The notes under the pieces were generated by a model. The model was not told where the DNA came from. It made no database searches and worked only from the letters and a program-made list of their open reading frames with translations. Of a stretch of 23,554 bases of DNA, positions 1 to 23,554 are shown piece after piece. The stretch's first letter is position 1. Every line of letters starts with the position of its first letter. The position numbers and the translations under genes are program-made. The DNA is from a virus. The stretch spans positions 1-23,554 of IMG/VR virus record IMGVR_UViG_3300048839_001225; one strand, 5' to 3'.

Positions 1-387
1 AGAGGCCGCGTACTGCGGGCCCCACCAACTGAACGCGGTGGCGCTTTCGACATTCAGCGTCGCCGCGATCTGCATGTAGCCCGTCTCGGCGGGGAGCCCG
101 GCGAAGACGGTGCCGTCATCGGTCCACGCCTTGAGGTGTGCGGCGGTCGATCCCTCGACCGAGAGATCGTTGACCGTTACGCCGACGGGCTCGCCCTGCA
201 CGAAGGAGAGCTGCACGATGTAACCCGCCGTGCGGACGATCGGGATGCCGGTGTTGACGACCTGCCACGCGAATCCGTCGTGATACTGCAGCCGGAGGGT
301 CGTGTCGGTCGCGCCCTCGGGGATCCGGATGCCGAGTTCGGGCGTGCCGTCGGCGGCGTGCAGCGTGATGTCCAGGCGGGAGTCGCC
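1..387. repeat. Left copy of 387-bp near-identical terminal direct repeat
   Basis: Bases 1-387 align without gaps to 23168-23554 with 7 substitutions (positions 61, 103, 163, 168, 169, 178 and 270). The repeat lies wholly inside the large virion-protein gene and is cut by both window ends. This fits the overlap of a circular molecule, or two paralogous genes. Confidence 0.97.
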
Positions 388-1449
388 GAACTGCTTGATC
401 GGGATGCGGAGGCAGGACTTGCCGTTCGCCCGGGGTCGGCGGTGGGTCACCGATCGCACCGTGCCCGCTGGCGAGGCCCAGTTGTAGCGGGGCGATCCGG
501 CCAGCGAGGCGTCGAAGTCCAGATCGGTGACGGCGATCAGCGTACCCGCGAGTCCGAGGAGATCCACCCCGGCGGGCCAGTCCCAGCAGGCGTCGAACGC
601 GAACAGCCCGGCGGAAATGCTCAGATCCTGCGAGGTCGCGGCGGCGAGCCGGAGCCCGTGCATCGTCGCGACCGAGTCGTCGCCGTACTCGGGCAGGTCG
701 TACCGCCCGCCCGAATCGACCTCGGCCATCCCGGTCCAGTTGCCGTCGAATCCCCCGGAGTCGAAGGTGTCCACCTGCATCCCGAGCCAGTTGATCCAGT
801 GGGTCGGCGTCCCGCCCGAGCCGAGTGCGCCGTCCCAGACGCAGCGGATGTGGCCGCGAACCTGCGTCGCCGTGGTGGTGGTGTAGTAGCTGAAGAACTG
901 CCCGTCGATGAAGGTGAGGATCCGGTAGTTGGTGCCATCAAGGTTTTCGAGCCAGGTGTCGATCAGGTGGACCGCGTTCCACTTGAGCCTGCGCGGTGCG
1001 TAGTTGCTCGCGGCGCTGACGGCGGTCAGGTGCAGGTGGGCCCCGTCGTTGTTCGCGGTCGCCCCGCCGTAGGTGTGCGTAAACCGTGTGCCGGTGGTCG
1101 TCCCGAAGACAATCCGGGCCGTGAACGACGCGGAGACTCCGTCGTTCGTGCCCTTCTCGAAGATGACCCGCTGCCGGATCCTCGCGCACTTGCCCGAGGC
1201 GTTCACCCAGGAATCTACCTCGGCGTCGCTAAACGGACGGATGCCGAGACCAGTACCCGCCGCCGTGGCCGCCCCGGTCAATGCCAGCGCGACCTCGCCG
1301 TTCGGAGCGGCTCGCAGGAGGGCGGAGTCTCCGGGCGCGGTCGTGAAGGTCGCCTGCGTCGCCGCGGGCTCTGGGAATCCGAGGTCCGCGATCACCGCGC
1401 CGGTCTTTATAGCCCAGTCTGCGTTGCTGAGGATGTGAGTCGCTGCCAT
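1..1449 (-). CDS. Large virion (tail fibre/appendage-like) protein, N-terminal 483 residues, cut by window start
   Basis: The frame opens with ATG at 1449, preceded by a good ribosome site (GGAG, 6 nt spacing), and stays open to base 1, so the 3' end is missing here. The protein starts MAATHILSNADW and is rich in Gly, Thr, Asp and aromatic residues, with no membrane segment or signal. This is typical of a beta-rich secreted or virion protein. Codon 483 ends exactly at base 1 and continues in frame with the gene at 22442-23554 if the ends are joined, giving 724 residues in all. Residues 355-483 are nearly identical to the start of that second copy. It lies after the early-gene chain and, on the circle, just before terminase. 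I do not recognise the N-terminal domain. A tail fibre, spike or adhesin role is inferred from size, composition and context. Confidence 0.8.
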   Translation of the reverse strand, partial: MAATHILSNADWAIKTGAVIADLGFPEPAATQATFTTAPGDSALLRAAPNGEVALALTGAATAAGTGLGIRPFSDAEVDSWVNASGKCARIRQRVIFEKGTNDGVSASFTARIVFGTTTGTRFTHTYGGATANNDGAHLHLTAVSAASNYAPRRLKWNAVHLIDTWLENLDGTNYRILTFIDGQFFSYYTTTTATQVRGHIRCVWDGALGSGGTPTHWINWLGMQVDTFDSGGFDGNWTGMAEVDSGGRYDLPEYGDDSVATMHGLRLAAATSQDLSISAGLFAFDACWDWPAGVDLLGLAGTLIAVTDLDFDASLAGSPRYNWASPAGTVRSVTHRRPRANGKSCLRIPIKQFGDSRLDITLHAADGTPELGIRIPEGATDTTLRLQYHDGFAWQVVNTGIPIVRTAGYIVQLSFVQGEPVGVTVNDLSVEGSTAAHLKAWTDDGTVFAGLPAETGYMQIAATLNVESATAFSWWGPQYAAS

Positions 1450-1470
1450 GTTCCGCTCCGTCTATATCTA

Positions 1471-1495
1471 ATAACACCAGAACAGGGGGTGTTAT
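1471..1495 (-). promoter_or_regulatory. Inverted repeat in the 66-nt spacer before the large virion gene
   Basis: ATAACACC (1471-1478) and GGTGTTAT (1488-1495) form a perfect 8-bp stem with a 9-nt loop. The 1450-1515 spacer is clearly more AT-rich than its surroundings and separates the early chain (ending at 1516) from the virion gene starting at 1449. It could be an operator or a weak terminator, and a promoter may lie here too. No clean T-run follows on the minus strand, so the role is inference. Confidence 0.4.
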
Positions 1496-1515
1496 GAAAG
1501 AAAGTCAGTTCCAGT

Positions 1516-3418: not shown

Positions 3419-3609
3419 CTCGCGCCCCACTTGGCCTGCGCGGCCCTGAGCCGCCGCTGGGTCCTCTCCAGCTCGTCGGCGAGCGCGGAGAGCAGAGGCT
3501 CGATCTGGCAGGCCCAGATCGTGCAGCCCTCGCAGCGGATGTTGCGCCCGACCTCCCGGGCCCGCTCAACCAGCCGATCCGCACGATCTCCATCGCGGCC
3601 GAGTTTCAT
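3415..3609 (-). CDS. Small Cys-cluster/coiled-coil early protein (64 aa)
   Basis: ATG at 3609 (MKLGRDGDRADRLVE) overlaps the stop of the replication initiator by 4 nt. The protein is two charged helices flanking three cysteines, C26, C29 and C34 (RCEGCTIWACQ). The second helix is a likely coiled coil (LLSALADELERTQRRLRAAQ). The Cys trio could bind a metal, but a fourth ligand is not obvious. Its place directly after the initiator, with translational coupling, suggests it works with replication; this is inference. Confidence 0.68.
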   Translation of the reverse strand: MKLGRDGDRADRLVERAREVGRNIRCEGCTIWACQIEPLLSALADELERTQRRLRAAQAKWGAR

Positions 3610-4727
3610 GGGGCATCCTCCTGGCTGGCGGCCTCCAGGACGCGCTCGAGAAGGCCGCGGGAGAGCACCAGGCGGCGCCGCTCCTCGGTCGTGCGGGACC
3701 AAAGCAGGTCCCGGTACCAGTTCGAGTCGGTGGTCCGGGCGAACGCCTCGATGGCCGCGTCGAGGCCCTCCTCGCCGAGTGCCTCGACGCGGGCGGCGGC
3801 CTGGCGTTCCGCCTCCTGGGCGATCGCCAGCTCGGCCTCGCGCTCCCGTCGGCGCCGCTCGGATGCGGATTCGGAAATCCGGTCCCGCTCCGCCTGCTCC
3901 CGCTGTCGCCTACGTTCGGCTTCGATATCCAAGAAGCTCGGTTCCCGGATCCGGGAGATGACCCAGCCCGGAACCCCGCCAGGCCGCAGAGAATCCCGCC
4001 TGGCGCGTCCGGCCGCCAGGGCGGCCCGGACCACGGTCGGGGTCGTCAGCGTCAGGCAGGCGAGCTCCCTGGCGGTCCGTGGGTCGATCCAGTCCGAGCG
4101 TCCGTACCACTCGGGCTTGCGGACGATCAGCTCGTAGCAGACCGCGGCGTTGCCGTCGAGACCGGCCCCGTGATGGACGGGCTCCGGCTCCGAGCGCGTA
4201 GATCGAACCCCACCACCACCACCATCCGCCCTGATGGTGGTGGTGGTAGAAGTCTTGTTAGATACAGTGAGGTATAACGGCGACTGATGTCCGCACGGCT
4301 GGACATCTGATGTCCGGACGCGTGGACATCTGATGTCCGGACGCGTGGACATCTGATGTCCGGACGCGTGGACATCGGGCGCGAAGATGTAAGGTACACG
4401 ATCGGGCTCCTGCGGCGGTACGTTGTGGGTCTGCATGGCACTCCCGATCGTCAGGAGATAGATCGACGCACGCCCCGTTCGGGTGCGTCGAAGCAGGCCA
4501 CGGGAGCCGAGCTCCGCCAGAGCCTGGAACATCCGGCTCCGCCCCAGGCCCGAGTGCCGGATCAGGGCGGTAGCCCTGGCCTCGACGGCCCACCCGTCCC
4601 CGTCGTCGTGCGGGAAGCTCATCGCGACCAGCACGCCCAGAAGCAGGCGGGCCGCCGGCGTGAGCCCCAGCTCGGCGCCGGTCTCGATCGCGAATCGGGT
4701 CATCGAGGCTTTGGATCGTGCGTCCAT
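3606..4727 (-). CDS. Lambda-O-like replication initiator with internal origin iterons
   Basis: ATG at 4727 (MDARSKASMTRFAIE) is chosen over an open extension because GAGGG lies 5 nt upstream. The 373-residue protein has a winged-helix-like N-terminal domain at about 1-95 (TPAARLLLGVLVAMSF; SGLGRSRMFQALAELGSRG; wing RTRTGRASIYLL). A low-complexity linker follows at about 115-180, then a charged, largely helical C-terminal region with a Glu/Arg coiled coil at about 265-320. The linker is encoded by four 23-bp iterons (residues 118-148) and a long hairpin (161-172). This is the architecture of lambda O: DNA-binding head, origin inside the gene, C-terminal part for helicase loading. It follows the integrase and heads the early chain. 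Initiator function is strongly suggested by architecture; a generic HTH regulator is the alternative. Confidence 0.82.
   Translation of the reverse strand: MDARSKASMTRFAIETGAELGLTPAARLLLGVLVAMSFPHDDGDGWAVEARATALIRHSGLGRSRMFQALAELGSRGLLRRTRTGRASIYLLTIGSAMQTHNVPPQEPDRVPYIFAPDVHASGHQMSTRPDIRCPRVRTSDVQPCGHQSPLYLTVSNKTSTTTTIRADGGGGGVRSTRSEPEPVHHGAGLDGNAAVCYELIVRKPEWYGRSDWIDPRTARELACLTLTTPTVVRAALAAGRARRDSLRPGGVPGWVISRIREPSFLDIEAERRRQREQAERDRISESASERRRREREAELAIAQEAERQAAARVEALGEEGLDAAIEAFARTTDSNWYRDLLWSRTTEERRRLVLSRGLLERVLEAASQEDAP
4212..4247. repeat. Long perfect hairpin next to iterons
   Basis: Bases 4212-4225 and 4234-4247 are perfect inverted repeats of the form (ACC)n/(GGT)n with a 14-bp stem and an 8-nt loop. 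It lies inside the initiator gene and encodes a Thr-run and a Gly-run. The stretch between it and the iterons (4248-4284) is the least GC-rich part of the gene and could be the unwinding element. The origin role is inferred by analogy with lambda ori. Confidence 0.75.
4285..4376. repeat. Four tandem 23-bp iterons, probable replication origin
   Basis: Units start at 4285, 4308, 4331 and 4354 with an exact 23-bp period. Each has the dyad GATGTCC-N8-GGACATC. The last three are identical and the first differs only in the N8 spacer (GCACGGCT in place of GGACGCGT). Because 23 is not a multiple of three, the encoded peptide reads the unit in successive frames (DVHASGHQ, MSTRPDIR, CPRVRTSD). Iterons inside an initiator gene, next to a less GC-rich stretch, match lambdoid origins. 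Confidence 0.9.
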
Positions 4728-4814
4728 GCGGCCCTCAGAGGGTGTCGGCCCTGATGTGGTGCAGGTGTGATGCGGCAATCCCCGTCGGCCCGGTGGGGGC
4801 ACGCCGGAGACGGT

Positions 4815-5858
4815 TTACGACGGCACGAACCGCCGAATCTCTCGTTGGGCCTGGATCGCCCGCTCCTCGTCGGCGATCGCGTAGACCTCCGTCGTGCGGA
4901 GCTGGGAGTGCCCGGCAAGGGCCCGCCAGGCGTCCGGGTCGCGGGGCATCGCGCCCCGGGCCTCGGTGAGGACGCGGTGCCGGATCTGGTGCGGGTGCCA
5001 GGGCGGGATCCCGGCCGCGAGGCAGGCCCGTCGGACCGCCTGCAGCAGACTGCTCTCGGCGTAGGCTCGCCCGGTCCTCGGGCTCGCGAACAGCAGGGCG
5101 CCGGGGGCGAACGGCCGGAGGCGGTCCAGCAGTATCGCCTGGCAGGGCTCATCGAGCGGGATCGTCCGCGCCTTGCCGTGGTGGGCCGTCTTGTGCCCGT
5201 CGGGTCGGTAGACCCAGACCCCGTCCGCCCGCCCGGTGTCGATGTCCCCCGACCGCATCCGCCGGATCTCCCCGGTCCGGGCCCCGGTCAGGCGGAGCAG
5301 CTCGACCATGTCCCGCATGTCGCGGGTCAGGTGGGGGAGCGTCGCCAGGATCGTCTCGGGCGAGACCGGGCGGACGGGCGCGGGCTCGACGGCCCGGGTC
5401 CGCCCGGCCCGGAGGCCCGGGACGGCCCGCAGGGATTCCAGGGTCGAGGGGTCGACCAGCTCCTGGGCGACGCCCCAGGCGAAGCACCGCCGGGCGTGGC
5501 GGACGCAGCGGTTGATGTAGCCCCGGCTCAAACCCTCGTCGACGAGCGTCTCCCGCCAGGTCTGCAGGGCCAGGGCCCGGAACCGGTCCGCGGGCTGGTC
5601 GGCAGCGAACCTGAGCAGCTTGCCCAGGGTCGATCGGAGGTTCTTGGCCTCGCGGCTGGCCCCGTAATACTCCGAGGCGTGCCCGAGGAACCTGAGGATC
5701 AGGACTTCAACGGTCAGGGGGTGGGCGGTGATGGGGTGTTCGGGCTCCATGAAGCCCGAGGCTGCCACGCGTTCGTCCCCCGCCCAGACCGGGCTCGGGA
5801 AATCCGGCGTCGCCGCGCCGGTGGCGCGGGGTGCGCGGGTTGTCGCGACCGCTGACAT
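4815..5858 (-). CDS. int: Tyrosine recombinase/integrase
   Basis: This 347-residue site-specific recombinase would integrate and excise the phage at the attachment site. It has an N-terminal core-binding SAM-like domain (about 45-150) and a C-terminal catalytic domain (about 165-345). Catalytic residues are visible: R194 in TGARTGEIR, a Lys in HKTAHHGK (K223 or K229), H290 and R293 in HQIRH, H317 in AGHS, and the nucleophile Y326 in TTEVYA. Length is normal for the family and the motif set is intact. The HKTAHHGK..R block is a form I associate with planctomycete integrases. The gene lies about 340 bp from the partial tRNA-Gly that probably is attP, and 87 nt upstream of the replication initiator gene. 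Confidence 0.95.
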   Translation of the reverse strand: MSAVATTRAPRATGAATPDFPSPVWAGDERVAASGFMEPEHPITAHPLTVEVLILRFLGHASEYYGASREAKNLRSTLGKLLRFAADQPADRFRALALQTWRETLVDEGLSRGYINRCVRHARRCFAWGVAQELVDPSTLESLRAVPGLRAGRTRAVEPAPVRPVSPETILATLPHLTRDMRDMVELLRLTGARTGEIRRMRSGDIDTGRADGVWVYRPDGHKTAHHGKARTIPLDEPCQAILLDRLRPFAPGALLFASPRTGRAYAESSLLQAVRRACLAAGIPPWHPHQIRHRVLTEARGAMPRDPDAWRALAGHSQLRTTEVYAIADEERAIQAQREIRRFVPS

Positions 5859-6199: not shown

Positions 6200-6246
6200 A
6201 GCGGGTGATCGGACTCGAACCGACGACATTCAGCTTGGGAAGCTGA
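6200..6246 (-). other. attP: 3' half of tRNA-Gly(CCC): probable phage attachment site attP
   Basis: On the minus strand there is a perfect anticodon stem (TCAGC/GCTGA) with loop TTCCCAA (anticodon CCC at 6239-6237), a 5-nt variable loop, a T-arm with TTCGAGT loop, and the acceptor 3' strand CACCCGC with discriminator T. The 5' acceptor strand (expected GCGGGTG) and D-arm are absent upstream, so this is not a functional tRNA. A tRNA 3' half beside an integrase gene is the standard signature of an attP that restores the host tRNA on integration. The host target is therefore predicted to be tRNA-Gly(CCC). Confidence 0.88.
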
Positions 6247-6283
6247 TCGTCACTCGGCCCGAAAATATCGCGGCGGGCGAGTC

Positions 6284-6807: not shown

Positions 6808-7671
6808 TCAGAGGCCCGTGGGCATCGGCCCGCCGACCGATCGCTTGCCGCCGCCGATCGGGGTGTAGGCGCTGACCGTGTGCCGGGCTGCGTCGTAGAC
6901 CAGTGCGTTCAAATGCTCGGGTCCGGCGATATGCGTCGTGGCCCCGAAGTTCGTGATCGGCTTGCGGCTCCTGGTCAGGTCGATGCGGCTCCGGTAGCGC
7001 CGGACGACCGGGATGGTTGTGCAGTTGCGGACCTCAAGCTCGGCCTCTGGGTGGTGCATATTGATCTCGAGCGCCGGCGCGTCGTCGTCCTCCGGGTCGA
7101 TGTCGACGATGATCCGGCACCGGCCGTAGGCGTGGATCACGCCGGATCGGCGGACCTCGGCCACGCCCCCCCAGATCTCGAGCTTGGTGATGTCCGTCGC
7201 GTTGTAGCCGAAGTAACTCTGCCCGCCCATCTGCAGGACATTGGTCACGACGCCGGCGTTCTCGACGGTCAGCTGCCCGCCGACCAGCTCGTAGTTGGCG
7301 ACGGTGCCGCCGAGCTGGTGGAACCCGCCGCCCGCGCCCTTGTCGACCGAGACCCGGGTCGCGGCCCCCTGCCAGTGGAAGGTGCCCGAGCCGCCGTGGT
7401 CGATGATCTGCGGAGTCGAGCCCTGGTCACAGTCGAACTTGACCGGCGCCGACGCGGTCCCGAGGTCGCCGGTCCGCGCGGGCGCGACCTTGAACTGGTT
7501 CGGCCCGTCGGTCAGGCTGGACCAGTCGACATTGGAGACGATCGGCTCGCCGCCGCCTTGGACGGTGAGGTCGGCCCCGTCGGCGAACCCGGATCCGGCC
7601 GTGCCGTTGGCGATCTTCCAGTTGCCGACCGCCATCGAGGTCGCGTTGATGTCAAGGAACTCCGCAGCCAT
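6808..7671 (-). CDS. Beta-helix-like tail appendage protein
   Basis: A 287-residue protein starting MAAEFLDINATSMAVG, 3 nt after the previous stop. The middle (about 85-200) has many short Val/Gly/Asn-rich strands of similar spacing (ANYELVGGQLTVENAGVV; KLEIWGGVAEVRRSGVIHAY), typical of right-handed beta-solenoids in phage tail spikes and fibres. No signal peptide, membrane segment or recognised catalytic motif is seen. It is the last gene of the tail module, where host-binding proteins are usually found. Function as an appendage is inferred from fold pattern and location; I do not recognise a named family. Confidence 0.75.
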   Translation of the reverse strand: MAAEFLDINATSMAVGNWKIANGTAGSGFADGADLTVQGGGEPIVSNVDWSSLTDGPNQFKVAPARTGDLGTASAPVKFDCDQGSTPQIIDHGGSGTFHWQGAATRVSVDKGAGGGFHQLGGTVANYELVGGQLTVENAGVVTNVLQMGGQSYFGYNATDITKLEIWGGVAEVRRSGVIHAYGRCRIIVDIDPEDDDAPALEINMHHPEAELEVRNCTTIPVVRRYRSRIDLTRSRKPITNFGATTHIAGPEHLNALVYDAARHTVSAYTPIGGGKRSVGGPMPTGL

Positions 7672-7674
7672 GGT

Positions 7675-8001
7675 CTACTCCCGATCGGTGAACAGGACGA
7701 CCAGGCGGCACCGCTTGCCGGCCTGGGTCGATGCGGGCCTGATGAACAGGTGACCGGTGTCCCGCAGGTCCACCGGGCCGACGATCGCTCGGGTCGAGGG
7801 GTCGACCGCTACGGGCGTCCCGAACTCCACGGCCGAGGCCGGATCGGCGCCGAGGCTCCGGCGGACGGCCAGGGACATCGTGGTCGGGTCGGCGCCGAGG
7901 CTGAGGGCCTGGAAGCTCCCGTAGTTGGCGTTGAGCGGCACCGGGATCGCCAGCGTGCTGGCCAGGCCCAGGTCGATCTCGTAATAGCTGGTCATCTTCA
8001 T
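7675..8001 (-). CDS. Small tail-module protein (108 aa)
   Basis: Start chosen at 8001 (MKMTSYYEIDLGLA) because AGAGGA lies 5 nt upstream and the start falls just after the previous stop. The longer open frame upstream is an Arg/Pro-rich shadow of the neighbour. The protein is beta-rich with a short internal repeat (LGADPTT and LGADPAS) and ends in a strand pattern RCRLVVLFTDRE. It is probably a virion or tail-tip component by context. I do not recognise it. Confidence 0.7.
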   Translation of the reverse strand: MKMTSYYEIDLGLASTLAIPVPLNANYGSFQALSLGADPTTMSLAVRRSLGADPASAVEFGTPVAVDPSTRAIVGPVDLRDTGHLFIRPASTQAGKRCRLVVLFTDRE

Positions 8002-8011
8002 CTGGGTCCTC

Positions 8012-8755
8012 TCATCCGCAGCATCCGGGGCGTCGGAGCGGGTCTCGGGCCATGAACTCAGCGACGCCGTCGGGCGCCGCCGCGGCCGCGGGGTAGTCCG
8101 AACAGCGGAACCCGCTGTCGTCGCCAATGAAATCCGCCAAAAGGACCTGGGGGCTGAGCGTCGTCGAGCCTCGCGTCGACTGGGGCGACCCGCCCGCGGC
8201 CGTGAAAATGGACTCCCAGACGATCGAGGTCGGCGAGGAGACCAGCGTCCCCGTGAACCCCGGCGGCGGGGGATCCTGGCACGCGACGGTGTCGCCGAGC
8301 ATCGTCCAGTGCGGGCCGGGCGCGCCGATGAGGTTGGCGTTGTCCGTGGTCGCCCGCATCTGCGGCGCGTTCGCCAGGCCGAGGCTGGTGTCGGTCCGGG
8401 CCGCGAACGACCGGGCCCAGATCATCGGGCTGACCGGGACGGCGAAGGCCTGGACCACCGAGCCGAACCCGACCTGGTCGTGGCCGGCGAGGCCGTATCG
8501 CGCGATGATCGCGGCCTCGGTGAGGGCGGCGGGGTCCGCTGAGAGGGCGTAGCCGAAGATGCCGTGCCCGGCGCCGGGCGGCAGACCGCCGAGCTCCATG
8601 AGCCAATCGTGGTACTCGGCGGACCAGGCGACGACCTGCCATCTGGTCCGGACCGAGGCGTGCCAGCTCGGCGGCTGGCCGGCCTCGCAGGACGGGAACG
8701 AGACCTCGGTCCAGCAGGGCCCGATGTCGCAGCAGCAGGCGCGGCGGGCGTCCAT
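8012..8755 (-). CDS. Tail-module protein with terminal Cys clusters (247 aa)
   Basis: I choose ATG at 8755 (MDARRACCCDIGPC) rather than one 15 nt upstream. It forms a TGATG overlap with the previous gene, as elsewhere in this operon, and GGGGGA lies 5 nt before it. Cysteines cluster at the N-terminus (CCCDIGPC, then C22-region FPSCEAG) and at the extreme C-terminus (RRPGCCG). The middle is rich in Trp, Gly and Ala (WSAEYHDWLMELGG). Paired Cys clusters at both ends could bind metal or form disulfides in the virion. It is probably a tail-tip or baseplate component by position. Family not recognised. Confidence 0.75.
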   Translation of the reverse strand: MDARRACCCDIGPCWTEVSFPSCEAGQPPSWHASVRTRWQVVAWSAEYHDWLMELGGLPPGAGHGIFGYALSADPAALTEAAIIARYGLAGHDQVGFGSVVQAFAVPVSPMIWARSFAARTDTSLGLANAPQMRATTDNANLIGAPGPHWTMLGDTVACQDPPPPGFTGTLVSSPTSIVWESIFTAAGGSPQSTRGSTTLSPQVLLADFIGDDSGFRCSDYPAAAAAPDGVAEFMARDPLRRPGCCG

Positions 8756-9654
8756 CAGCTTCCCCCGCATTCGCCGTCAACGGCCTGGGGCGTGGAGGTG
8801 ATGTACCAGGCGCCCTCGATCAGCGAGAGCAGGACCGGGGCCCCAATGCGCAGCGGGACGGGATCGAACCCCTGCAGGTTTTCCCGGGCGATGCCGGACC
8901 AGAGGTGCGTCGCGTCCCCGCCTTCGAGCGGGTTGGTCGCGAGTAACGGCTCGAACCCGGTCATCGCCGCCCAGAGGTCCGGGTCGGGGTCGCCGACCGC
9001 CCGGACGCACTCGTATTCCCAGCGGTCCGTGGCCAGCGGGGCGACGCCGACGATGATCGCCCGCATCATGCCCCCGAATCCGAACTCGGCGAGCCCGCCT
9101 CCGTTGGGGTCGCCCTCGGCCAGCCCGCCGCCGCCGAGCAGGGCGTAGGCCCACTGGGTGCCCTCCCCGGGTCGGCGGTAGACCTGCCGCATCTCGCCGG
9201 GGGTGGGGCTCGATATTACGGCCCAGGCCTCGATCTCCGAGAGGCCCAGGTAGCGGTCCCCGGGGTCCTGGACCTGGACCCGGACCGGCGTCATGCCGGC
9301 GATCAGGACCGGGCCGACGCCGCCGGCCTCGATTTGCTGCTGGGCGATGACGATGGGCGCGCCCGCGTTGTCCGCGTCGGCGGGCTCGAGAGCCAGGCAG
9401 AGGTGGGTGAGGAACTGGCCGAGTTGCTCCTCGGGGTCGACCGCCGCGCTCGTCGCGCGGGCCACGCCGTAGGCCGGGATGGGCATCTGGGTGGGATTTC
9501 GGGCCAGGACGATCGTCCCTGAGACCTCGAACCCCAGCGGGGTGCGGCTCCCGGGGTAGGCGGCGGGGCCGACGGCGGCCAGATCAATCAGGCGGTTCTG
9601 TAGTGACGCCGGGATGGCGATCGGCTGGCCGGGATGGACTTTTGGCCACGGCAT
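8755..9654 (-). CDS. Tail-module structural protein (299 aa)
   Basis: It starts at 9654 (MPWPKVHPGQPIAIPAS) with a 1-nt TGATG overlap. The N-terminal pattern GQP.AIPAS..NRLIDLAA recurs in phage virion proteins of GC-rich hosts as I recall them, and may be a virion-attachment helix. The remainder is beta-rich with a Gly-rich stretch (ALLGGGGLAEGDPNGGG). It has no signal or membrane segment and no enzymatic motif. Located between the gene after the tape measure and the Cys-cluster protein, it is probably part of the tail tip. The specific role is unknown. Confidence 0.76.
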   Translation of the reverse strand: MPWPKVHPGQPIAIPASLQNRLIDLAAVGPAAYPGSRTPLGFEVSGTIVLARNPTQMPIPAYGVARATSAAVDPEEQLGQFLTHLCLALEPADADNAGAPIVIAQQQIEAGGVGPVLIAGMTPVRVQVQDPGDRYLGLSEIEAWAVISSPTPGEMRQVYRRPGEGTQWAYALLGGGGLAEGDPNGGGLAEFGFGGMMRAIIVGVAPLATDRWEYECVRAVGDPDPDLWAAMTGFEPLLATNPLEGGDATHLWSGIARENLQGFDPVPLRIGAPVLLSLIEGAWYITSTPQAVDGECGGS

Positions 9655-14017: not shown

Positions 14018-14464
14018 CTATGCGGCGTTGCGGACCACGCCTCGCCAGTGCCCGGCCAGGTGGGTCCTCGCCACCTCGAGCGCGGGCCGCATGTACGGGC
14101 GGGCCTGGATCGTGAGATGCGTCTGGCTCCCCATCCACCAGGCGGGGGCGCGGGTGCGCCCGCCGAACTCCAGCAGGCCGGGAACGCCGGTCCGCCGCGG
14201 GAACGCGGCCGGGCCGACGATGACGCTGCGGGTGCGATCGTCGTAGGCGAAGAACAGCAGATCGCGGAGCTGCCCGGCGTGGGCGTGCGGGGGCTGCCCG
14301 GGCCTCGACCGGCCGCGGCGACGCCGCATCGACCGGCGGGCCGTGGTCCGGATCAGCCCGCCGGAGCGGGCGAGGGCCTGACGGCGGCCGCGATCGACGG
14401 CCCGCGTGACCTTCTCGCGGTCGAAGAACGAGGCTTTATACTGGTCCACGGTCATGGTGATCAT
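14018..14464 (-). CDS. HK97 gp10-like neck/tail completion protein
   Basis: A 148-residue basic protein starting MITMTVDQYKAS with a 4-nt overlap to the gene before it. A second ATG three codons in is possible. It has an N-terminal helix, an Arg-rich segment (TTARRSMRRRRGRSRPG) and the motif ARPYMRPALEVA near the end, which matches the RPFLRPAL signature of HK97 gp10-like proteins. These act at the head-tail junction or in tail completion. Position just before the tail tube supports this. Confidence is moderate because the N-terminal half is not diagnostic. Confidence 0.75.
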   Translation of the reverse strand: MITMTVDQYKASFFDREKVTRAVDRGRRQALARSGGLIRTTARRSMRRRRGRSRPGQPPHAHAGQLRDLLFFAYDDRTRSVIVGPAAFPRRTGVPGLLEFGGRTRAPAWWMGSQTHLTIQARPYMRPALEVARTHLAGHWRGVVRNAA

Positions 14465-15870: not shown

Positions 15871-15886
15871 GGTTCACCCCCCGTGA

Positions 15887-16240
15887 TCAGAACTGCTGCC
15901 ACCAGATTTGCATGTGGGTGTCGGTCGTGGCCCGGTCTTCGAGGAGGGTTCCGATCCGCTTGTTGGTGCCCGAGTCGGCGGTGTCCTGCCCGTTCGTGTC
16001 CGCGGCGTCCCAATAGATCGGGTCCCCCCGGCTGTAATCGGTTCCCGCGCCGGTGGGCTTGGGGATCTCGATGACGCCTTCTATGCAGAGGGCACCCTTC
16101 TCGGCCGCGGCCAGGTCAGAGACGACCACGCCGATAAGGCTGCCCGCGACCACGACCACCCCGGCCGCCGTCGCGCTGCCGGGGGTGTAGTCGACGGTCG
16201 CCTTGTTGACCTTGATCTCTGCGACGAAAGTGCTCATCAT
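15887..16240 (-). CDS. DUF2190-type capsid cement/decoration protein
   Basis: A 117-residue protein (MMSTFVAEIKVNKATVDY). I start at the ATG at 16240. The next ATG (16237) has better spacing to the AAAGGA site, so either may be used. Open frame upstream crosses a terminator hairpin and is an Arg/Pro-rich shadow. The pattern GSLIGVVVSDLAAAEKGALC, then SRGDPIYWDAADTNGQ and NKRIGTLLEDRATTDTHMQI, is the hallmark of DUF2190 proteins that stabilise HK97-type heads. It directly follows the capsid gene, as usual. A terminator hairpin in between would let the two be made at different levels. Confidence 0.85.
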   Translation of the reverse strand: MMSTFVAEIKVNKATVDYTPGSATAAGVVVVAGSLIGVVVSDLAAAEKGALCIEGVIEIPKPTGAGTDYSRGDPIYWDAADTNGQDTADSGTNKRIGTLLEDRATTDTHMQIWWQQF

Positions 16241-16267
16241 GATCCTTTCGGTGGGTGGGTGAATCGG

Positions 16268-16301
16268 AAAAGCCCGGGCCCGCCGTTGGGGCGGGCCGGG
16301 C
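16268..16301 (-). terminator. Intrinsic terminator/attenuator between capsid and cement genes
   Basis: On the minus strand a 12-bp GC-rich stem with one bulged G (arms 16301-16290 and 16284-16272, loop of 5 nt) is followed by TTTT (16271-16268). It lies 19 nt after the capsid stop. This is a good rho-independent terminator, probably partial so that downstream genes are still read. Confidence 0.72.
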
Positions 16302-16319
16302 CGGCGGGAAAAAGGGTCA

Positions 16320-17831
16320 TTACGAGCCGGCGGACTTCTGGGCGCCCTTCGGGTCGACAAACGCGGCGCCAACGGCGAGGTAACCCTGGTAGAAGAGGCC
16401 GAGGCTGTTGTACGGGGCCGGGACGCGGCGGACGGTCGGGGTCCGGACCCCGCCGACGAACGCGAGCTCGAGCGCGGCGACCATGCTCGGGTCGGCCAGG
16501 AGATACCAGGCCGCCGCCGAGTAGCCGCTGTAGCTCGCGTCGGAGAGGTGCGGCGCGACGACCAGCTGGTACTTGTTGCGCCACGGGTTTCCGTCGGCCT
16601 TCTCGGCCGCGGTCGATCCCGTGAGGTTGACGCCGGCGGAGTTGAGCAGGGCCTCGGCGTCGGTCTCCAGCTCGGGGGGGACCAGGAGGATCTTGGGGTT
16701 GACCTGGATCGGACGATCGTCCTTGGCCTTGGCGCCCGGGCCGGCCTTGAGCTTCCGGAAAGCCTTACGGGCGTTGGCGAGACCGGTCAGGCCGAACGCG
16801 GAGCCGGCCCCGGTGAGGAGGTTCGCGTTGTCGCTGTGAAAGAACGACCCGGTGTTCGCGAGGATCAGCGTAAAAAGCTTATGGTCGATGAGCGAGGCGC
16901 CGGAGTGCCCGAGGAGTGTGCCGATGTCGTTCAGGATGCCCAGGTCGTCGTTGACAAAGTCCTTGTAGTCGATCCCGAGGACCTGGCCGTGCAGCGTGGC
17001 TTGGTTGGTGTAGCGGTCGTCGTCGAGGGTGCCGCTCTTGAGCGTGCCGTCCTTGCCGACCTCTTCCCACTGCCCGGTGCCGGTCAGGCGGTAGGCTTCT
17101 ACCTGCTTGAAGTCCGGGACATTCCGGGTCCGGGCGATCTGGAACCCGACGATTTCGTGGGCCTCGTAGATCCGCAGCGCGATCTTCCCGACGACATTCG
17201 AGGCGACCGAGGAGAGCGAGCGGGTGGAGGTCGCGGCCTCGATCACAGAGCGGCCATCGCCGAAGACGCTGGGGACATCCGCCCCGTCGTTCCGGGCGGA
17301 CATAAGGGCGAGGTCCCGGAGGCCGATGCCGCGGAACCGGTCCGCCTGGTTCATGGTCTGCTCGCCGTAGGCTTTGAGCGTCGCCTCGTCGTCGTAGCCC
17401 AGGCTGATCATGCAGGCGGCCTCGAGGACCGTGGTGTTGACCGGCTGGCCGGCGGTGCCACGGCGGGCGGCCAGATCCACGGTGGGCCGGCTCGCCCGCA
17501 GGAGCTGCAGCTCGGTCCGCTCGGGGGTCCACCCTTTCTCGATGGCCTCGGCGGCGATGTCGGCGTTGGCCTCGCCGCAGAGCTCCCGGACGGCCGAAAT
17601 GCGTTTCTGCTCGGCGGCGTACTGGGCCCGGACCTCGCCGATGATCTTCCCGGCCTCCTCGGCGAGGTCGTCGCGGTCCGGGTCCTCGTGACCCTCGCGG
17701 CCCGATCGGGCCGCGACGATCCGTAGCTCGCCCTTCTCGATCTTCCAGGCCTGCTCCAGGGAGGCCTTCATCTCGTCGGTCAGCTTCGACGCCTCCAGGC
17801 CGAGCTTTTTCAGCCAGTCTTCGAACTTCAT
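16320..17831 (-). CDS. Probable internal-start product: scaffold plus major capsid protein
   Basis: Inside the fused gene, codon 190 is an ATG (MKFEDWLKKLGLEASK) preceded by a near-perfect ribosome site GGAAGGA with 6 nt spacing (17844-17838). The product, 503 residues, would begin exactly at the protease/scaffold boundary. This mirrors lambda C/Nu3, where an in-frame internal start makes a second product. It would let the capsid be made in excess of the protease. Inferred from sequence; needs protein data. Confidence 0.6.
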   Translation of the reverse strand: MKFEDWLKKLGLEASKLTDEMKASLEQAWKIEKGELRIVAARSGREGHEDPDRDDLAEEAGKIIGEVRAQYAAEQKRISAVRELCGEANADIAAEAIEKGWTPERTELQLLRASRPTVDLAARRGTAGQPVNTTVLEAACMISLGYDDEATLKAYGEQTMNQADRFRGIGLRDLALMSARNDGADVPSVFGDGRSVIEAATSTRSLSSVASNVVGKIALRIYEAHEIVGFQIARTRNVPDFKQVEAYRLTGTGQWEEVGKDGTLKSGTLDDDRYTNQATLHGQVLGIDYKDFVNDDLGILNDIGTLLGHSGASLIDHKLFTLILANTGSFFHSDNANLLTGAGSAFGLTGLANARKAFRKLKAGPGAKAKDDRPIQVNPKILLVPPELETDAEALLNSAGVNLTGSTAAEKADGNPWRNKYQLVVAPHLSDASYSGYSAAAWYLLADPSMVAALELAFVGGVRTPTVRRVPAPYNSLGLFYQGYLAVGAAFVDPKGAQKSAGS

Positions 17832-18398
17832 GGGGTTTCCTTCCGTGCTCGCGGCGATGCGCGTGGTGGTGCCCCGGTCCGCACCGAGGGCGACGAAACT
17901 GACCTCGTAGACGACCGTTTTACGGGCGACCACGATGGGCCCGTCGAAGGTCCGGCCGTTGACTGTGACCCGCTTGCCCGCCTTGACCAGCTCGGCCTCG
18001 ACGACCCTTGCCCCGATCGAGGCCTGCCAGGGAAAGCCCCGCTTGGCGCTCGCGAGGACATCCTCTCGCGGGGTCCCGGCCCCGCTGAGGACGCCGTCGA
18101 CATGGATGCCGGCGGCGTCGACCCGTATCGAGCCGTGCCCGACCGGCTCGGCGTGGTTGTGCCCGCGTAGCAGAGGGATCTCGGGGGTCTCGCTGGTGAC
18201 CCCGGCCAGGTCGACGACGACCGGGTGGGGGATCTGGGCGAACCGCATCGGGGCACCGGTGTAGGCGAGCATCGAGAGCCGCGGGGCGTCGCCGTCCGCG
18301 GCCTCCAGCGTGACCGCCAGCCCGGAATCCAGCGTGAACCCGGCCCGGAGCGTGCCCGGGTCGTAGGCGGCCTGGATGATCAGCTCTTGGCGGCTCAC
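16320..18398 (-). CDS. Fused prohead protease-scaffold-major capsid protein
   Basis: A 692-residue protein with ATG at 18398 in a 4-nt overlap with the portal gene. The N-terminal region (about 1-185) is an HK97-type prohead serine protease: His in LRGHNHAEPVGH (H80/H82), Ser in PWQASIGA (S127) and Glu in VYEVSFVALGAD (E165) are in family order and spacing. Residues about 190-290 are charged and helical, like a delta/scaffold domain. About 290-692 is an HK97-fold-type capsid domain (NTTVLEAACMISLGY; RDLALMSARNDG; SAAAWYLLADPSMVAALELA). A strong internal start at residue 190 could yield scaffold-capsid without protease. Self-cleavage is likely after assembly. The fusion is known in several phages but is less common than separate genes. 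Confidence 0.9.
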   Translation of the reverse strand: MSRQELIIQAAYDPGTLRAGFTLDSGLAVTLEAADGDAPRLSMLAYTGAPMRFAQIPHPVVVDLAGVTSETPEIPLLRGHNHAEPVGHGSIRVDAAGIHVDGVLSGAGTPREDVLASAKRGFPWQASIGARVVEAELVKAGKRVTVNGRTFDGPIVVARKTVVYEVSFVALGADRGTTTRIAASTEGNPMKFEDWLKKLGLEASKLTDEMKASLEQAWKIEKGELRIVAARSGREGHEDPDRDDLAEEAGKIIGEVRAQYAAEQKRISAVRELCGEANADIAAEAIEKGWTPERTELQLLRASRPTVDLAARRGTAGQPVNTTVLEAACMISLGYDDEATLKAYGEQTMNQADRFRGIGLRDLALMSARNDGADVPSVFGDGRSVIEAATSTRSLSSVASNVVGKIALRIYEAHEIVGFQIARTRNVPDFKQVEAYRLTGTGQWEEVGKDGTLKSGTLDDDRYTNQATLHGQVLGIDYKDFVNDDLGILNDIGTLLGHSGASLIDHKLFTLILANTGSFFHSDNANLLTGAGSAFGLTGLANARKAFRKLKAGPGAKAKDDRPIQVNPKILLVPPELETDAEALLNSAGVNLTGSTAAEKADGNPWRNKYQLVVAPHLSDASYSGYSAAAWYLLADPSMVAALELAFVGGVRTPTVRRVPAPYNSLGLFYQGYLAVGAAFVDPKGAQKSAGS

Positions 18399-19879
18399 GC
18401 GTCGTCCTCCTCTCCCTCGGCGCCGACCGCGGCCTTGTCGCGGGACCCCGGGGCCCCGCCGACCGCCAGGGAATCGATGTTCACGCCGAGCTGGTCGGCG
18501 TAGTCTCGCTCGCGGGCGACCTGTTCCAGCTCACGCTCCCAGTCCGCGCCGTAGGCCTCGGAGAAATAGCGGTCCAGGCTGAGCAGCTTGCTGCGGCGCA
18601 GGATCTCCGCCGCCTTGGCGTCCTTTTCGGGGTCTCCGCTGGTCAGCGCGTCCCACCGCCAGGCGTGCCGGACCTGATCCATCCTGATCCCGCGGGGGAT
18701 CTGGCCCGGGATCAGCGCCGCTTCGCGGATCCAGGCGGCAAAGACCGGGTGCAGGACCGAGGCCTCGATCTCCCGCCGCTCGACTCGGATCGAGGCGTAA
18801 TAGACGCCGTGGTCCAGCTTGCCCGAGGCGAAGTTCTGGCCGTCGTTGCTCGCCAGGGCGATCGACAATGGCATGTCCAGGCAGCGGGAGAACTCGTTCA
18901 CGATCTCCCGGCGGAACTCTTTCAGCCCGGTGACATTCTGCTCGGGGCCGAGGCGCTTGGCCTTCCACCCGTCTGGCATGGTCAGCAGGTGGCCGGGCTC
19001 CAGCTCGATCGCGTCCAGCGGGTCCAACGGTGCCGCGCCCTCGGGGGCGTCGGATTCCATGACTCCGGCGATATTGGCGTTCAGCTCGGCGTTGAGAAGG
19101 GTGGCAAGGATGTAGCGGCGAAGGATCGCCCCGAGGGCCAGGGCCGGGGTCAGCTCGCTGACGCCGCGGGCCTCGCCCGGACGCACCGCGTGTCGGTAAT
19201 GGAGCATCTGCTCGGCGGGAATGACCTCGTAGTCGAGGGTATTGCCCAGGGCCCGGTCGTCACCCGGGTGGGCCTTGAGCAGGTCGTAGCTCACGATATT
19301 GCCCGCCCGGTCGAACCGGACGCCGTCGATCCGGAGCGGGTCGGCCGCCGGCAGGTCGGGCGTCGCGATCTGGTCGGCCTCGATCAGCCGCAGGTCGAGG
19401 CTGACGCCCTCGTAGAGCGGGTTCGTGGCGAGCAGGGCGAAGGCCTCGCCGTCGACGCACTTGGATCGCCGCATTATCCGGAGCTTCTCGCCGAGCCGGG
19501 CCCGGCGGGCCCAGGCAGCGAATGAATCCTCGATCTGCCGGTCCGCGTCGCGGTCGCCGGTGTCGATCCGGAGCATCGGTCCGGCGCCCACGGTGTGTTG
19601 CACGAGCGTCCGCAGCATGCCCGCGAGCAGGCTGTTGTTGGCCGCCTCGTACCGGGCCCGGTTCCGCAGGGCCTCCCGGACCTCGGGGGAGTTCGCGCTC
19701 CAGGCGGCCAGGTTGTCCGAATTCGACCAGTGCCTCGCGTTGGCGCCGTCGCTCTTGGCCGAGTCGTAGCCGGCGAAGAGCCTCCAGGCCTTGTCCACCG
19801 AGACGCGCGAGGCCGGCCCCTCGACCCGCTCGGGGGAGCGGCGGACCAGGCCGAGCTTGGCCAGGAGGCGGTCGATCAT
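18395..19879 (-). CDS. Lambda-type portal protein
   Basis: A 494-residue protein starting MIDRLLAKLGLVRRSPERVE with a 4-nt overlap to the gpW-like gene. It has the layout of lambda gpB/HK97-type portals: an N-terminal segment with FAGYDSAKSDGANARHWSNSD, then REALRNRARYEAANNSLLAGMLRTL, VSLDLRLIEADQI and QMLHYRHAVRPGEARGVSEL, a long stem helix region (AILRRYILATLLNAELNANI) and a C-terminal part with AWRWDALTSGDPEKDAKA. Lambda gpB is of comparable size (about 530). It forms the 12-fold ring at the packaging vertex. Terminase and gpW lie upstream, protease-capsid downstream. Confidence 0.93.
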   Translation of the reverse strand: MIDRLLAKLGLVRRSPERVEGPASRVSVDKAWRLFAGYDSAKSDGANARHWSNSDNLAAWSANSPEVREALRNRARYEAANNSLLAGMLRTLVQHTVGAGPMLRIDTGDRDADRQIEDSFAAWARRARLGEKLRIMRRSKCVDGEAFALLATNPLYEGVSLDLRLIEADQIATPDLPAADPLRIDGVRFDRAGNIVSYDLLKAHPGDDRALGNTLDYEVIPAEQMLHYRHAVRPGEARGVSELTPALALGAILRRYILATLLNAELNANIAGVMESDAPEGAAPLDPLDAIELEPGHLLTMPDGWKAKRLGPEQNVTGLKEFRREIVNEFSRCLDMPLSIALASNDGQNFASGKLDHGVYYASIRVERREIEASVLHPVFAAWIREAALIPGQIPRGIRMDQVRHAWRWDALTSGDPEKDAKAAEILRRSKLLSLDRYFSEAYGADWERELEQVARERDYADQLGVNIDSLAVGGAPGSRDKAAVGAEGEEDDA

Positions 19880-20076
19880 CGGACCGCACTCCCGGGGTTG
19901 AGCCTGGCGAGCCGGATCGGGAGGCTTGAGCCGCCCGCATTGGCCTGCTTGGCCAGGTACTTATCGACCTGGATCAGCGCGGCCGGATCGTGCTCCTGGA
20001 CGCGCAGGCCGTCGGTCTCGATGACCTTGGGGCCCTTGGCCGACTCTTCCAGGTTCTCGCGGACCGTCTCGGGCAT
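19876..20076 (-). CDS. gpW-like head completion protein (66 aa)
   Basis: A 66-residue protein starting MPETVRENLEESAKG at 20076. The pattern KVIETDGLRVQEHDPAALIQ, then VDKYLAKQANAG and LARLNPGSAV, resembles the lambda gpW family, which has a short hairpin strand DG..V followed by a helix. Length is almost that of lambda gpW (68). It lies between terminase/zinc ribbon and portal, the conserved place for W. It would stabilise packaged heads and provide the tail-joining interface. Confidence 0.75.
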   Translation of the reverse strand: MPETVRENLEESAKGPKVIETDGLRVQEHDPAALIQVDKYLAKQANAGGSSLPIRLARLNPGSAVR

Positions 20077-20096
20077 GCCCGATCATGCCGCGCCGG

Positions 20097-20321
20097 TCAG
20101 CCGTCCTGGTCCTCGTCTTCGCGGTCGCGATCAGATTGGCGCATATGTGCGCCTTTCTGCGTGGCCGCGACGCCGGCGACCGTCTCCACGGTGAAATAGG
20201 CCGCTCCGCACCAGCCGCAGACGCGGCGACGGCGGACCTTGCCCAGGACCTTGGTCGTGCGGACGACGTCGCTCATCGGGCAGTGGCAGCGGGGGCATTT
20301 CAGGCCGCGGTCGGCGGTCAT
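20097..20321 (-). CDS. Stand-alone NrdR-like zinc ribbon protein (74 aa)
   Basis: Start ATG at 20321 overlaps the terminase stop by 4 nt. It has a C-x2-C...C-x2-C zinc ribbon: C9 and C12 in KCPRCHC, C35 and C38 in RRRRVCGWCGAAYFTVET. The RRRR.C..C....FT.E arrangement is very like the N-terminal zinc ribbon of NrdR repressors, but the ATP-cone is missing and the protein ends in a charged tail (RQSDRDREDEDQDG). Another option is a Mu Com-like translational regulator. It may control late transcription or translation. The ribbon is clear; the role is inference. Confidence 0.8.
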   Translation of the reverse strand: MTADRGLKCPRCHCPMSDVVRTTKVLGKVRRRRVCGWCGAAYFTVETVAGVAATQKGAHMRQSDRDREDEDQDG

Positions 20322-22423
20322 CGCCCGGCCCTCCGCTCCGCCTGGAGCTCACGCAGGCTTTTGGTCGGACGGGCGCGTTCCCGGGGGGCCTCGCGCCGTT
20401 CGCCCTCCAGAAGGGCCGCGCCGACGACCGAAGCGGCGACGCAACAGCCGACCACGCCGTCGAGCAGGTGGTTGTCGCGCCCCCGCAGAACCTTCCACTC
20501 GTCGACCGTGCGGCCGCCCGAGCTGGTAACCCGCTGCCGCTCCTCGGCCGTCAGATGCTCGGCGAGCATGCGGTGACTCTTGGCGTCGGCGGTGGTTCCG
20601 GGGAGCCAGAGCGCGGCCCGGTCCCCCCTGGGCGTGGTCAGTCGGGCCCAGGTGAACGATTTCCAGAAATTTGTGTCCCAGACGACCTCGCGAATAGCCC
20701 GACGGCCGCCGGGGGCCGCGATGAACCAGCCCGGGCCGATGCGGTCGCCGCGCTTCTTCGTCCGGTCGTGGATAGGCTTGGAGCTTGCCCCGTAGTATCG
20801 GCCTCGGCTCGGCATGACGCGGGCCGCGTGCCGGGTCGAGCGGGCCCAGCTGAAAACGGTCTCGGTGCTCCAGTTCGCGTCGACCATGAACAAGTCCAAG
20901 GGCACGACGCCGCCGCTGTGTCGCTTCCATTCGCGGTCCAGGAGGCGGGAGGCGAGCCGCTCCAGGCCGGCCGTGATCGCGCCCTCCTGGCCGGCTCCTG
21001 GCGCCGCCCGCTTAAGCGTCCGCTTGATGTCGCGAAGGGTGAAGTAGGCGCGGCCCTGGTCCGGCTCGGTCCCGTAGTCGACAATCCAGGCGTCGAATCC
21101 CTTGCCGTACGCGATCGCGACCCAGAACAGGGCTCGGCCCTGGACATCGGCGAACGCGGTCAGAAACTCCGCTTCGTCGGGAACCAGCCCTCTCGGCACC
21201 CCGGATACCCGCTCCTGGACCTCGTCGGGCTTCAGGATCGCCGTTTCCTCGTCCACGCCCTCGCGGATCGGCTCGTTCTGCAGTTCGGCGAAGAACATCG
21301 CGGGTTTGGCCAGGTAGACCCGCATCACGCCTTCGAGCGCCGAGGCCTCGTCGGGCTTGTAGCGGGCCTCCCAGGCGACGCGGGCCCCCAGGTCCATCTC
21401 GGCCCGCCGGTCGCGGTAAAAAGCGGCGGCGGTCTCCGTGTCGCCCGTGGGCAGGCCCGCCCGGTAGAGCTCGCCGTAGGCCTCCCAGAGGTCCATCCGG
21501 GTCGGAAACTCGTACAGGGCCCGGCATCGCTCGGCCCTCCATTCCGGGTGTTTCTCGACATTCAGCAGGCGATCGGCCAGGTCATCGGGCTCGATGACGG
21601 TGATCGCCGCCAGGCCCGCGATCGACTTCCCGGGTCCGGCCAGGCCCAATATGGCGTTGTCCACCACGGCCTCGCGGGCCTGGATCTGCGAGGGGCTTTT
21701 GGCGCTCTCGTCGGTCTGGGGGTCGTCGATCAGGACCAGGTCGGGGCGGACGCTAGACCCGTCCGCGAGGGCGTGTTTCATGCCGCGGATCCGGCCGGTG
21801 ATCCCGGCCGCCTGGATGACAGATCCCGAGACCAGCGAGTTCTCGACGGTCGGCATGACCAGCTTTCGCTCGGTCAGGCGGATCCGCGTGCTCCAGCCCC
21901 GGCTCAACTGGCCGGCGGCCCGCTGGCGGATGCCCTCGAGCCGACGGATCGGGTAGCAGACCTCGGGGAAGTCCGCCGCGAGCCGCTCGTTGGTCTCGAG
22001 CTGGACCAGGATCGCCTCGATGATCTGTCTGGCGTGGTCGTTCTCGGCGCCGATGATGACGGTGTACCGGCAGTGGCTGTAGAGCGTCGCCCAAATCGGG
22101 CTGACCTCGGCGAGCAGGCTGGTCTTGCCCGAGCCTCGCGGCATGGCCACGGCGGCCAGCTGGCCGCGGAGGACGGCGGACTCGATCAGGCCGATGACGC
22201 GGATGTGATCCGGCGACCAGGCCAGTTGGAAGATCTGCGGGAAGTATGTCTCGCAGAACATACGCAGGTCGAGCCGGCAGGCCTCGCGTCGGTCGGGTGT
22301 TTCGACCGGCGGGATCGGGCCGATGTCACGCGCGGTCCGGGAGTCCTCCGCCGCGCGGCCGGCCATGCGCTCGCGGTGGCGGCCGTAGGCGGAATCGACC
22401 TGTCCAAAGAGTCCCACCGCCAT
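20318..22423 (-). CDS. Terminase large subunit, lambda GpA-type
   Basis: A 701-residue DNA packaging motor and nuclease. Walker A is MPRGSGKT (94-101) and Walker B is DLVLIDD (228-234), in the N-terminal ATPase domain. The C-terminal nuclease domain has acidic residues at FADVQGR (D426), FMVDANWST (D515) and NHLLDGV (D655), as in the GpA family. Length is slightly above lambda gpA (641). No separate small subunit (Nu1-like) gene is recognisable immediately upstream; the neighbour is the virion protein at 22442. This gene starts the head module and is coupled to the zinc ribbon gene by 4 nt. Confidence 0.94.
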   Translation of the reverse strand: MAVGLFGQVDSAYGRHRERMAGRAAEDSRTARDIGPIPPVETPDRREACRLDLRMFCETYFPQIFQLAWSPDHIRVIGLIESAVLRGQLAAVAMPRGSGKTSLLAEVSPIWATLYSHCRYTVIIGAENDHARQIIEAILVQLETNERLAADFPEVCYPIRRLEGIRQRAAGQLSRGWSTRIRLTERKLVMPTVENSLVSGSVIQAAGITGRIRGMKHALADGSSVRPDLVLIDDPQTDESAKSPSQIQAREAVVDNAILGLAGPGKSIAGLAAITVIEPDDLADRLLNVEKHPEWRAERCRALYEFPTRMDLWEAYGELYRAGLPTGDTETAAAFYRDRRAEMDLGARVAWEARYKPDEASALEGVMRVYLAKPAMFFAELQNEPIREGVDEETAILKPDEVQERVSGVPRGLVPDEAEFLTAFADVQGRALFWVAIAYGKGFDAWIVDYGTEPDQGRAYFTLRDIKRTLKRAAPGAGQEGAITAGLERLASRLLDREWKRHSGGVVPLDLFMVDANWSTETVFSWARSTRHAARVMPSRGRYYGASSKPIHDRTKKRGDRIGPGWFIAAPGGRRAIREVVWDTNFWKSFTWARLTTPRGDRAALWLPGTTADAKSHRMLAEHLTAEERQRVTSSGGRTVDEWKVLRGRDNHLLDGVVGCCVAASVVGAALLEGERREAPRERARPTKSLRELQAERRAGR

Positions 22424-22441
22424 CCGTGGCCCTGTCTGCTC

Positions 22442-23554
22442 TCATCGCCGCCGGCGTCGACCGAGCGCCATGATGGCGGCCTCGGTGCCGCCGCTGGCCG
22501 GGGGATTGATCGCCGGCCCGGCCCCCTGGTAAACACCCCAGAGGTACGCTCTCGACCCGTTGTTCCCCTGAGGGTGGACATTGCCCTCGTCGAGACGGAC
22601 GGCCTCGGTCGCCTCGGACTCGCCACCGAAGACCTCGGCCAGGTCGAAGAACCCGAGCCCGCCGAGCGAGCCCGCCGCGTTGAGGTCGCGCTCCCACTCG
22701 TTTATCGCCAGGTGGTTCGACACGCGATCGGCGACATACGAGGCGAACGCGGAGGGGGTCGGTGTCGGGCCGAGCAGGAGATTGCCGCCACCGGAGCGGT
22801 ACGCTGCGATGAGCGTCTGTGTTGGGGCCTGTATGCCGGAGAGGTTGCCGAGTTCGTTTACCGTGCCGTTGATCTTGCCATCGATGATGTGGAGCGGAAA
22901 CGATCGACTTGCCGAGACCCAGGCATCAGCATCGTCTTCGAGCGAGTAGGTCAGGAAGTCCTCGATTGACATCCCCGACCGTCCGTAGCAGCAGAACGGA
23001 CCCGAGGGCAGCGAGTAGAGACCGAAGCCCGAGGCGGCCTCGCCGCGCCCCATCTCGGCGTCATAGGCCCGCCGAGCCCAGTATCCCGGCGTGCTGCTGA
23101 CCGGGCGGACCAGGCCGCCGCTCCCGGCGGTGGTGTTTGTGTAAGAGGACTCGATGAGCATCGGCAGAGAGGCCGCGTACTGCGGGCCCCACCAACTGAA
23201 CGCGGTGGCGCTTTCGACATTCAGCGTTGCCGCGATCTGCATGTAGCCCGTCTCGGCGGGGAGCCCGGCAAAGACGGTGCCGTCATCGGTCCACGCCTTG
23301 AGGTGTGCGGCGGTCGATCCCTCGACCGAAAGATTATTGACCGTCACGCCGACGGGCTCGCCCTGCACGAAGGAGAGCTGCACGATGTAACCCGCCGTGC
23401 GGACGATCGGGATGCCGGTGTTGACGACCTGCCACGAGAATCCGTCGTGATACTGCAGCCGGAGGGTCGTGTCGGTCGCGCCCTCGGGGATCCGGATGCC
23501 GAGTTCGGGCGTGCCGTCGGCGGCGTGCAGCGTGATGTCCAGGCGGGAGTCGCC
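22442..23554 (-). CDS. Large virion protein, C-terminal part, 5' end cut by window end; SGNH-esterase-like domain
   Basis: The frame is open at the window end and stops at 22442, 18 nt before terminase. Its first 129 codons match residues 355-483 of the gene at 1-1449 with two amino-acid changes (D to N, A to S). The C-terminal region has a pattern of SGNH/GDSL hydrolases, second half: HIIDGKINGTVNE (block III-like G..N), LIAAYRSGGGNLLLGPTPTP, NEWERDLNAAGSLGGLGFFD and DEGNVHPQGNNGS (block V-like His). The expected D-x-x-H spacing is altered, and a block I GDS is seen only as GDSRLD in a strand-like context, so activity is doubtful. Such domains in tails may deacetylate surface sugars. It ends in an Arg-rich tail (GRRRRR). 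Confidence 0.72.
   Translation of the reverse strand, partial: GDSRLDITLHAADGTPELGIRIPEGATDTTLRLQYHDGFSWQVVNTGIPIVRTAGYIVQLSFVQGEPVGVTVNNLSVEGSTAAHLKAWTDDGTVFAGLPAETGYMQIAATLNVESATAFSWWGPQYAASLPMLIESSYTNTTAGSGGLVRPVSSTPGYWARRAYDAEMGRGEAASGFGLYSLPSGPFCCYGRSGMSIEDFLTYSLEDDADAWVSASRSFPLHIIDGKINGTVNELGNLSGIQAPTQTLIAAYRSGGGNLLLGPTPTPSAFASYVADRVSNHLAINEWERDLNAAGSLGGLGFFDLAEVFGGESEATEAVRLDEGNVHPQGNNGSRAYLWGVYQGAGPAINPPASGGTEAAIMALGRRRRR
23168..23554. repeat. Right copy of 387-bp near-identical terminal direct repeat
   Basis: It matches 1-387 without gaps with 7 substitutions; five are third-codon synonymous and two are missense. It runs to the very last base, as expected of an overlap from a closed circle. 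Confidence 0.97.

Follow-up and report, generated by a model that had tools for sequence, protein, structure and literature searches.

An inexact end overlap and an unsplit tRNA-derived attachment site point to a circular map for the genome of a temperate tailed phage, probably from Planctomycetota

Introduction

Judged from matches to the large terminase subunit (TerL), a common and little described prophage group resides in the Planctomycetota. The TerL used for these comparisons is encoded by IMG/VR virus record IMGVR_UViG_3300048839_001225. It finds a match in 70 of 392 sampled Planctomycetota genomes, with a best identity of 54%, compared with at most 50% in viral contigs and only about 30% in named phage records. 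We often observed this terminase family twice per Planctomycetota genome. The window analysed here comprises the deposited record in full, 23,554 bp. We argue, at a probability of roughly 0.9, that it holds one full turn of 23,167 bp plus a further 387 bp of the circular-map genome of a temperate tailed phage. The ends overlap inexactly inside a large variable gene.

The terminal repeats used by CheckV reportedly have to match exactly. As described, the rule calls for a stretch of 20 bp or more that recurs at the start and end (PMC8116208). To assemblers, strain variants are bubbles at which contigs may be ended (the Phables paper, PMC10563150).

Results

The sequence-only reading had proposed that the first and last 387 bases match without gaps at about 98%, and realignment confirmed this. 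In direct orientation, the sign of circularity that we looked for, bases 1–387 and 23168–23554 aligned over 387 columns without a gap, 380 of them identical (98.2%). This is no chance match, because the next-best ungapped register anywhere in the window reached only 157/387; blastn of both 2-kb ends likewise returned the end overlap as the only match. Both copies lie on the minus strand and represent codons 355–483 of the joined gene described below. They differ at positions 61, 103, 163, 168, 169, 178 and 270 (left-copy numbering) by six transitions and one transversion. Five differences are silent and two cause mild amino acid changes (D/N and A/S), the proportions of nonsynonymous and synonymous differences (pN and pS) being 0.007 and 0.051. 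When seven changes were placed at random with the same transition bias, at least five were silent in 3% of trials. Since the differences are mostly transitions and mostly silent, the two end copies look like standing natural variants of one functional gene.

With seven mismatches inside the overlap, the longest exact match between prefix and suffix has length zero, so a rule that demands an exact repeat of 20 bp or more would treat the record as a linear molecule. The missing exact repeat is a failure of the detection rule, not of circularity as such. We infer an assembly cause. The assembler would have halted within the variable large gene at the meeting point of two population variants and would have read the overlap stretch twice, once per variant, leaving ends that overlap at 98% and not exactly. 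That assemblers may end contigs at variant bubbles would explain such ends.

The overlap lies within an open reading frame (ORF) that is cut by both ends of the window. The left ORF (1449..1, minus strand, 483 codons) opens with a start codon and lacks a stop, whereas the right ORF (23554..22442, minus strand, 370 codons) reaches a stop but lacks a start within the window. Joined at 1/23167, they give 724 codons plus a stop that ends 18 nt ahead of the terminase ATG. These complementary start-only and stop-only ORFs bear out the earlier proposal that the halves form one 724-residue gene at this point. The accompanying observation, that the frame passes through the junction in phase, is correct but provides no independent evidence, because two copies that are 98% identical and share an open frame cannot join other than in phase.

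A tblastn search of the window with the joined protein recovered only the two overlap copies and no other paralogous stretch. The protein matched no family, its C-terminal part had no match in Pfam, PHROG, NCBIfam or the PDB, and no homologues of the 724-codon gene were found in the viral contigs, genome contigs or phage records searched. Its 5′ part (codons 1–483; 1..1449) is an ORF without a family match that would encode a putative receptor-binding or hydrolase-like protein. The C-terminal part (codons 484–724 plus stop; 22442..23167) contains the motifs ESSYT, GRSGMS, NGTVNELGN and DEGNVHP, which by eye resemble SGNH-hydrolase blocks. In uncultivated relatives, a small number of genes that immediately precede the terminase have beta-helix, GH123-like or prealbumin-like matches, making a surface-binding or hydrolase role plausible for genes at this place. 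The large junction gene is probably receptor-binding or hydrolase-like. One uncultivated relative (L064) has a 732-codon ORF just upstream of its terminase that by eye is like the junction gene in length, place and C-terminal motifs; this likeness is suggestive only, as neither blastp (E 0.45) nor hhalign (probability 0.1) revealed sequence homology between the two. Two further lines were left unused: large ORFs that precede the terminase in planctomycete genomes, which were mostly spurious arginine-rich frames without a Pfam match, and single-sequence structure predictions of both ORFs, whose predicted local distance difference test (pLDDT) scores were about 31–33.

The second line of evidence is the phage attachment site (attP). 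On the minus strand at 6246–6200, flanked by the last tail gene and the integrase gene, lies a 47-nt core that is exactly identical to the 3′ part of tRNA-Gly(CCC). Twenty-one public-genome stretches carry this core, and ARAGORN predicted a tRNA-Gly(ccc) at that spot in 18 of them. The identity starts exactly at the anticodon stem and stops 0–3 nt beyond the tRNA, leaving out the D arm and the 5′ side; Rfam gave the core only a weak tRNA hit without a D arm. Its two further weak hits were far below gathering scores and were set aside. The neighbouring tyrosine recombinase gene (4815..5858, minus strand; Pfam 7.8e-14, phrog_1 2.2e-32) has its ATG 342 nt beyond the core. An integrase beside a core that equals a tRNA 3′ end is the arrangement of a temperate phage with a tyrosine integrase. 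The layout is that of an attP, unsplit and not integrated. The integrase, whose activity we infer, would recombine the core with a host tRNA-Gly(CCC) gene. Because a single unsplit core is flanked by a tail gene and the integrase, the molecule that was sequenced is no lone integrated prophage taken out of its chromosome.

The core was absent from the viral contigs searched. Its exact carriers among genomes were cyanobacteria, members of the Chloroflexota and a member of the Phycisphaerales; as tRNA-Gly(CCC) is widely conserved, these carriers do not name the host. In the cyanobacterium Phormidium tenue, one contig contains two 47-nt copies of the tRNA-Gly 3′ end (L084 254–300 and L097 282–328), only one of them within a complete tRNA gene; they are possibly the ends of an integrated element.

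The third line of evidence is gene order in Planctomycetota prophages. In G404, a single strand carries tRNA-Asp, an integrase 35% identical to that of the window, terminase, portal, capsid, cement, neck, tape measure and tail genes, and 43 nt of the tRNA 3′ end recur exactly at the far end. G319 has tRNA-Met, integrase, terminase, portal and capsid, followed by an exact 45-nt copy of the tRNA 3′ end. These two prophages are about 46 kb each. In G420, tRNA-Pro, an integrase (27% identical) and terminase follow in the same order; no far-end tRNA copy was found before the contig end. A larger listing of integrases was used only for their positions relative to the terminase. When the joined circle is opened at attP, it has the same one-strand order of tRNA sequence, integrase, early genes, terminase, portal and capsid, with 5.6 kb leading from integrase to terminase across the junction 1/23167. 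Since the relatives lead from integrase via early genes into terminase, the window fits them only with its ends joined. The host is probably a member of the Planctomycetota. In another genome of this phylum (G388:C1, 2.67–3.17 Mb, minus strand), we noticed nine integrase genes of about 470–490 codons, 30–85 kb apart on a single strand, as if one element had inserted repeatedly.

The proposed circle would run from attP through integrase, replication initiator, small early genes and the large adhesin/hydrolase-like gene to terminase, and onward through portal, protease/capsid, neck, tape measure and tail back to attP. All called genes are on the minus strand, with a coding density of 0.95 for the gene list. 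The sequence-only reading's single-strand order stands, but, contrary to what it had supposed, the head module is not where this order begins and ends: the junction falls inside the large gene just upstream of the terminase.

The head genes begin with the terminase large subunit (20318..22423, minus strand, as for all genes below; Pfam GpA_nuclease 1.4e-23, phrog_38 4.2e-37). Between it and the portal gene lies an NrdR-like zinc-ribbon protein of 74 residues (20097..20321; Pfam 7.1e-08), which also adjoins TerL in relatives and keeps this place in planctomycete prophages. A small protein of head-tail joining type (19876..20076) is assigned by position and is conserved between TerL and portal in relatives. 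A lambda-type portal protein (18395..19879; Pfam 6.5e-47), a prohead protease and major capsid fusion (16320..18398; NF045541 1.3e-71, under the curated cut-off; phrog_4523 6.8e-63) and a head decoration (cement) protein (15887..16372; Pfam 2.2e-16, phrog_122) follow. Next are a neck or tail-completion protein (14018..14464; phrog_5 0.0053) that is conserved in relatives, the tail tape measure protein (10466..12235; phrog_1535 6.4e-08) and the distal tail genes (6808..10469). Among the latter, 9654–10469 and 8755–9654 are homologous to genes of planctomycete prophages, and those at 8012, 7675 and 6808 are assigned by position. Terminase, portal, capsid and tape measure together identify a tailed phage.

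A replication-initiator-like gene (3606..4802; phrog_270 6.6e-05), for which no relative was found in viral contigs, contains four 23-bp iteron-like direct repeats, GATGTCCACGCGTCCGGACATCA, with an internal dyad (4284..4376), reminiscent of the lambda origin within gene O. Each hallmark gene (terminase, portal, protease-capsid, cement, neck, tape measure, integrase and initiator-like) is present in a single copy. No small terminase subunit, repressor or lysis gene was recognised among the scanned genes, several small genes having been left unscanned, and no cos site was identified in the window.

Discussion

Several findings support the closed circle of about 23,167 bp that was first proposed from the ends of the record. 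The tRNA-derived attachment site is unsplit, with the tail gene on one side and the integrase on the other; tRNA, integrase, early genes and TerL follow one another in three prophages of the Planctomycetota, and two of these have a tRNA 3′-end copy on the far side; and the start-only and stop-only halves of one gene complement each other. Several points weigh against it. The circle is read from one assembled record, and as no homologue of the 724-codon gene was found in the sequences searched, no relative covers the junction itself. The genome length of 23.2 kb is half that of the two bounded related prophages, and none of the genes scanned was recognised as a small terminase subunit, lysis or repressor gene; together these make a shortened, deleted or defective genome possible. 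We regard it as doubtful, yet worth stating, that the phage is a compact, complete 23.2-kb temperate siphophage of the Planctomycetota that replicates from a lambda-O-like origin inside its initiator gene and that may both integrate and be maintained as a circle.

The main remaining rival, which we consider improbable, is that two near-identical prophages sit in tandem at one tRNA gene and that the contig runs from large gene to large gene, crossing a hybrid att site between the two copies. This arrangement would give the same pattern of 98% end copies and a tRNA core between tail and integrase, and several Planctomycetota genomes do have two terminase copies of this family. However, the observed double copies are far apart or on separate contigs, and the arrangement needs two prophages with a 98% identical gene in one cell or population as well as an assembly that broke twice in the same gene. 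With tandem prophages, too, each unit would be 23,167 bp long.

Still less likely is the alternative offered by the sequence-only reading itself, in which the phage genome would lie on a longer linear molecule between two separate, full-length paralogues of the large gene. Contig ends that cut each half would fit such a pair, but the cut would have to fall by accident inside both copies with a whole phage genome between them, and tblastn found no further paralogous stretch in the window. A paralogue pair would also leave the unsplit attP unexplained and the early module unlinked to the terminase. Physical direct terminal repeats of 387 bp on a linear, T7-like virion genome would place direct repeats at both contig ends, as seen, but such repeats should be identical, whereas these copies differ at 7 sites in 387 and lie within a coding gene, so that we give this explanation hardly any credence.

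With the circular map, a record without an exact terminal repeat becomes a complete genome for which the attachment site is mapped and a host phylum is probable. The gain is largely one of bookkeeping, since seven differences hide circularity from an exact-match test and the genome is otherwise ordinary. The loss is general: genomes that end in a variable gene overlap inexactly and escape exact-repeat tests. Pairing an end-overlap test that tolerates mismatches with a search for tRNA cores would recover them.

Compared with known systems, the window resembles its uncultivated IMG/VR relatives (L003–L082) in a terminase that is 39–50% identical and in common portal, capsid and cement genes; unlike the window, none of the 20 terminase relatives tested had an end overlap, exact or inexact, and these relatives lack any gene closely related to the junction gene or the initiator. 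With lambda-type temperate siphophages it shares a lambda-type portal, an integrase with attP and an initiator gene with internal iteron-like repeats, whereas its protease and capsid are fused and its terminase is of a distant gpA-endonuclease/phrog_38 type. The Planctomycetota tRNA prophages (G404, G319 and G420; loci L192, L194–L198, L175 and L189) differ in their terminases (41–52% identical) and in the tRNA genes used, the bounded ones in being about 46 kb compared with 23.2 kb, and G420 in an early region with a primase-polymerase and a ParB-methylase. Like the window, they have a tyrosine recombinase downstream of a same-strand tRNA gene and terminase, portal and capsid in the same order on the same strand, and in G404 and G319 the core is likewise a tRNA 3′ end from the anticodon arm.
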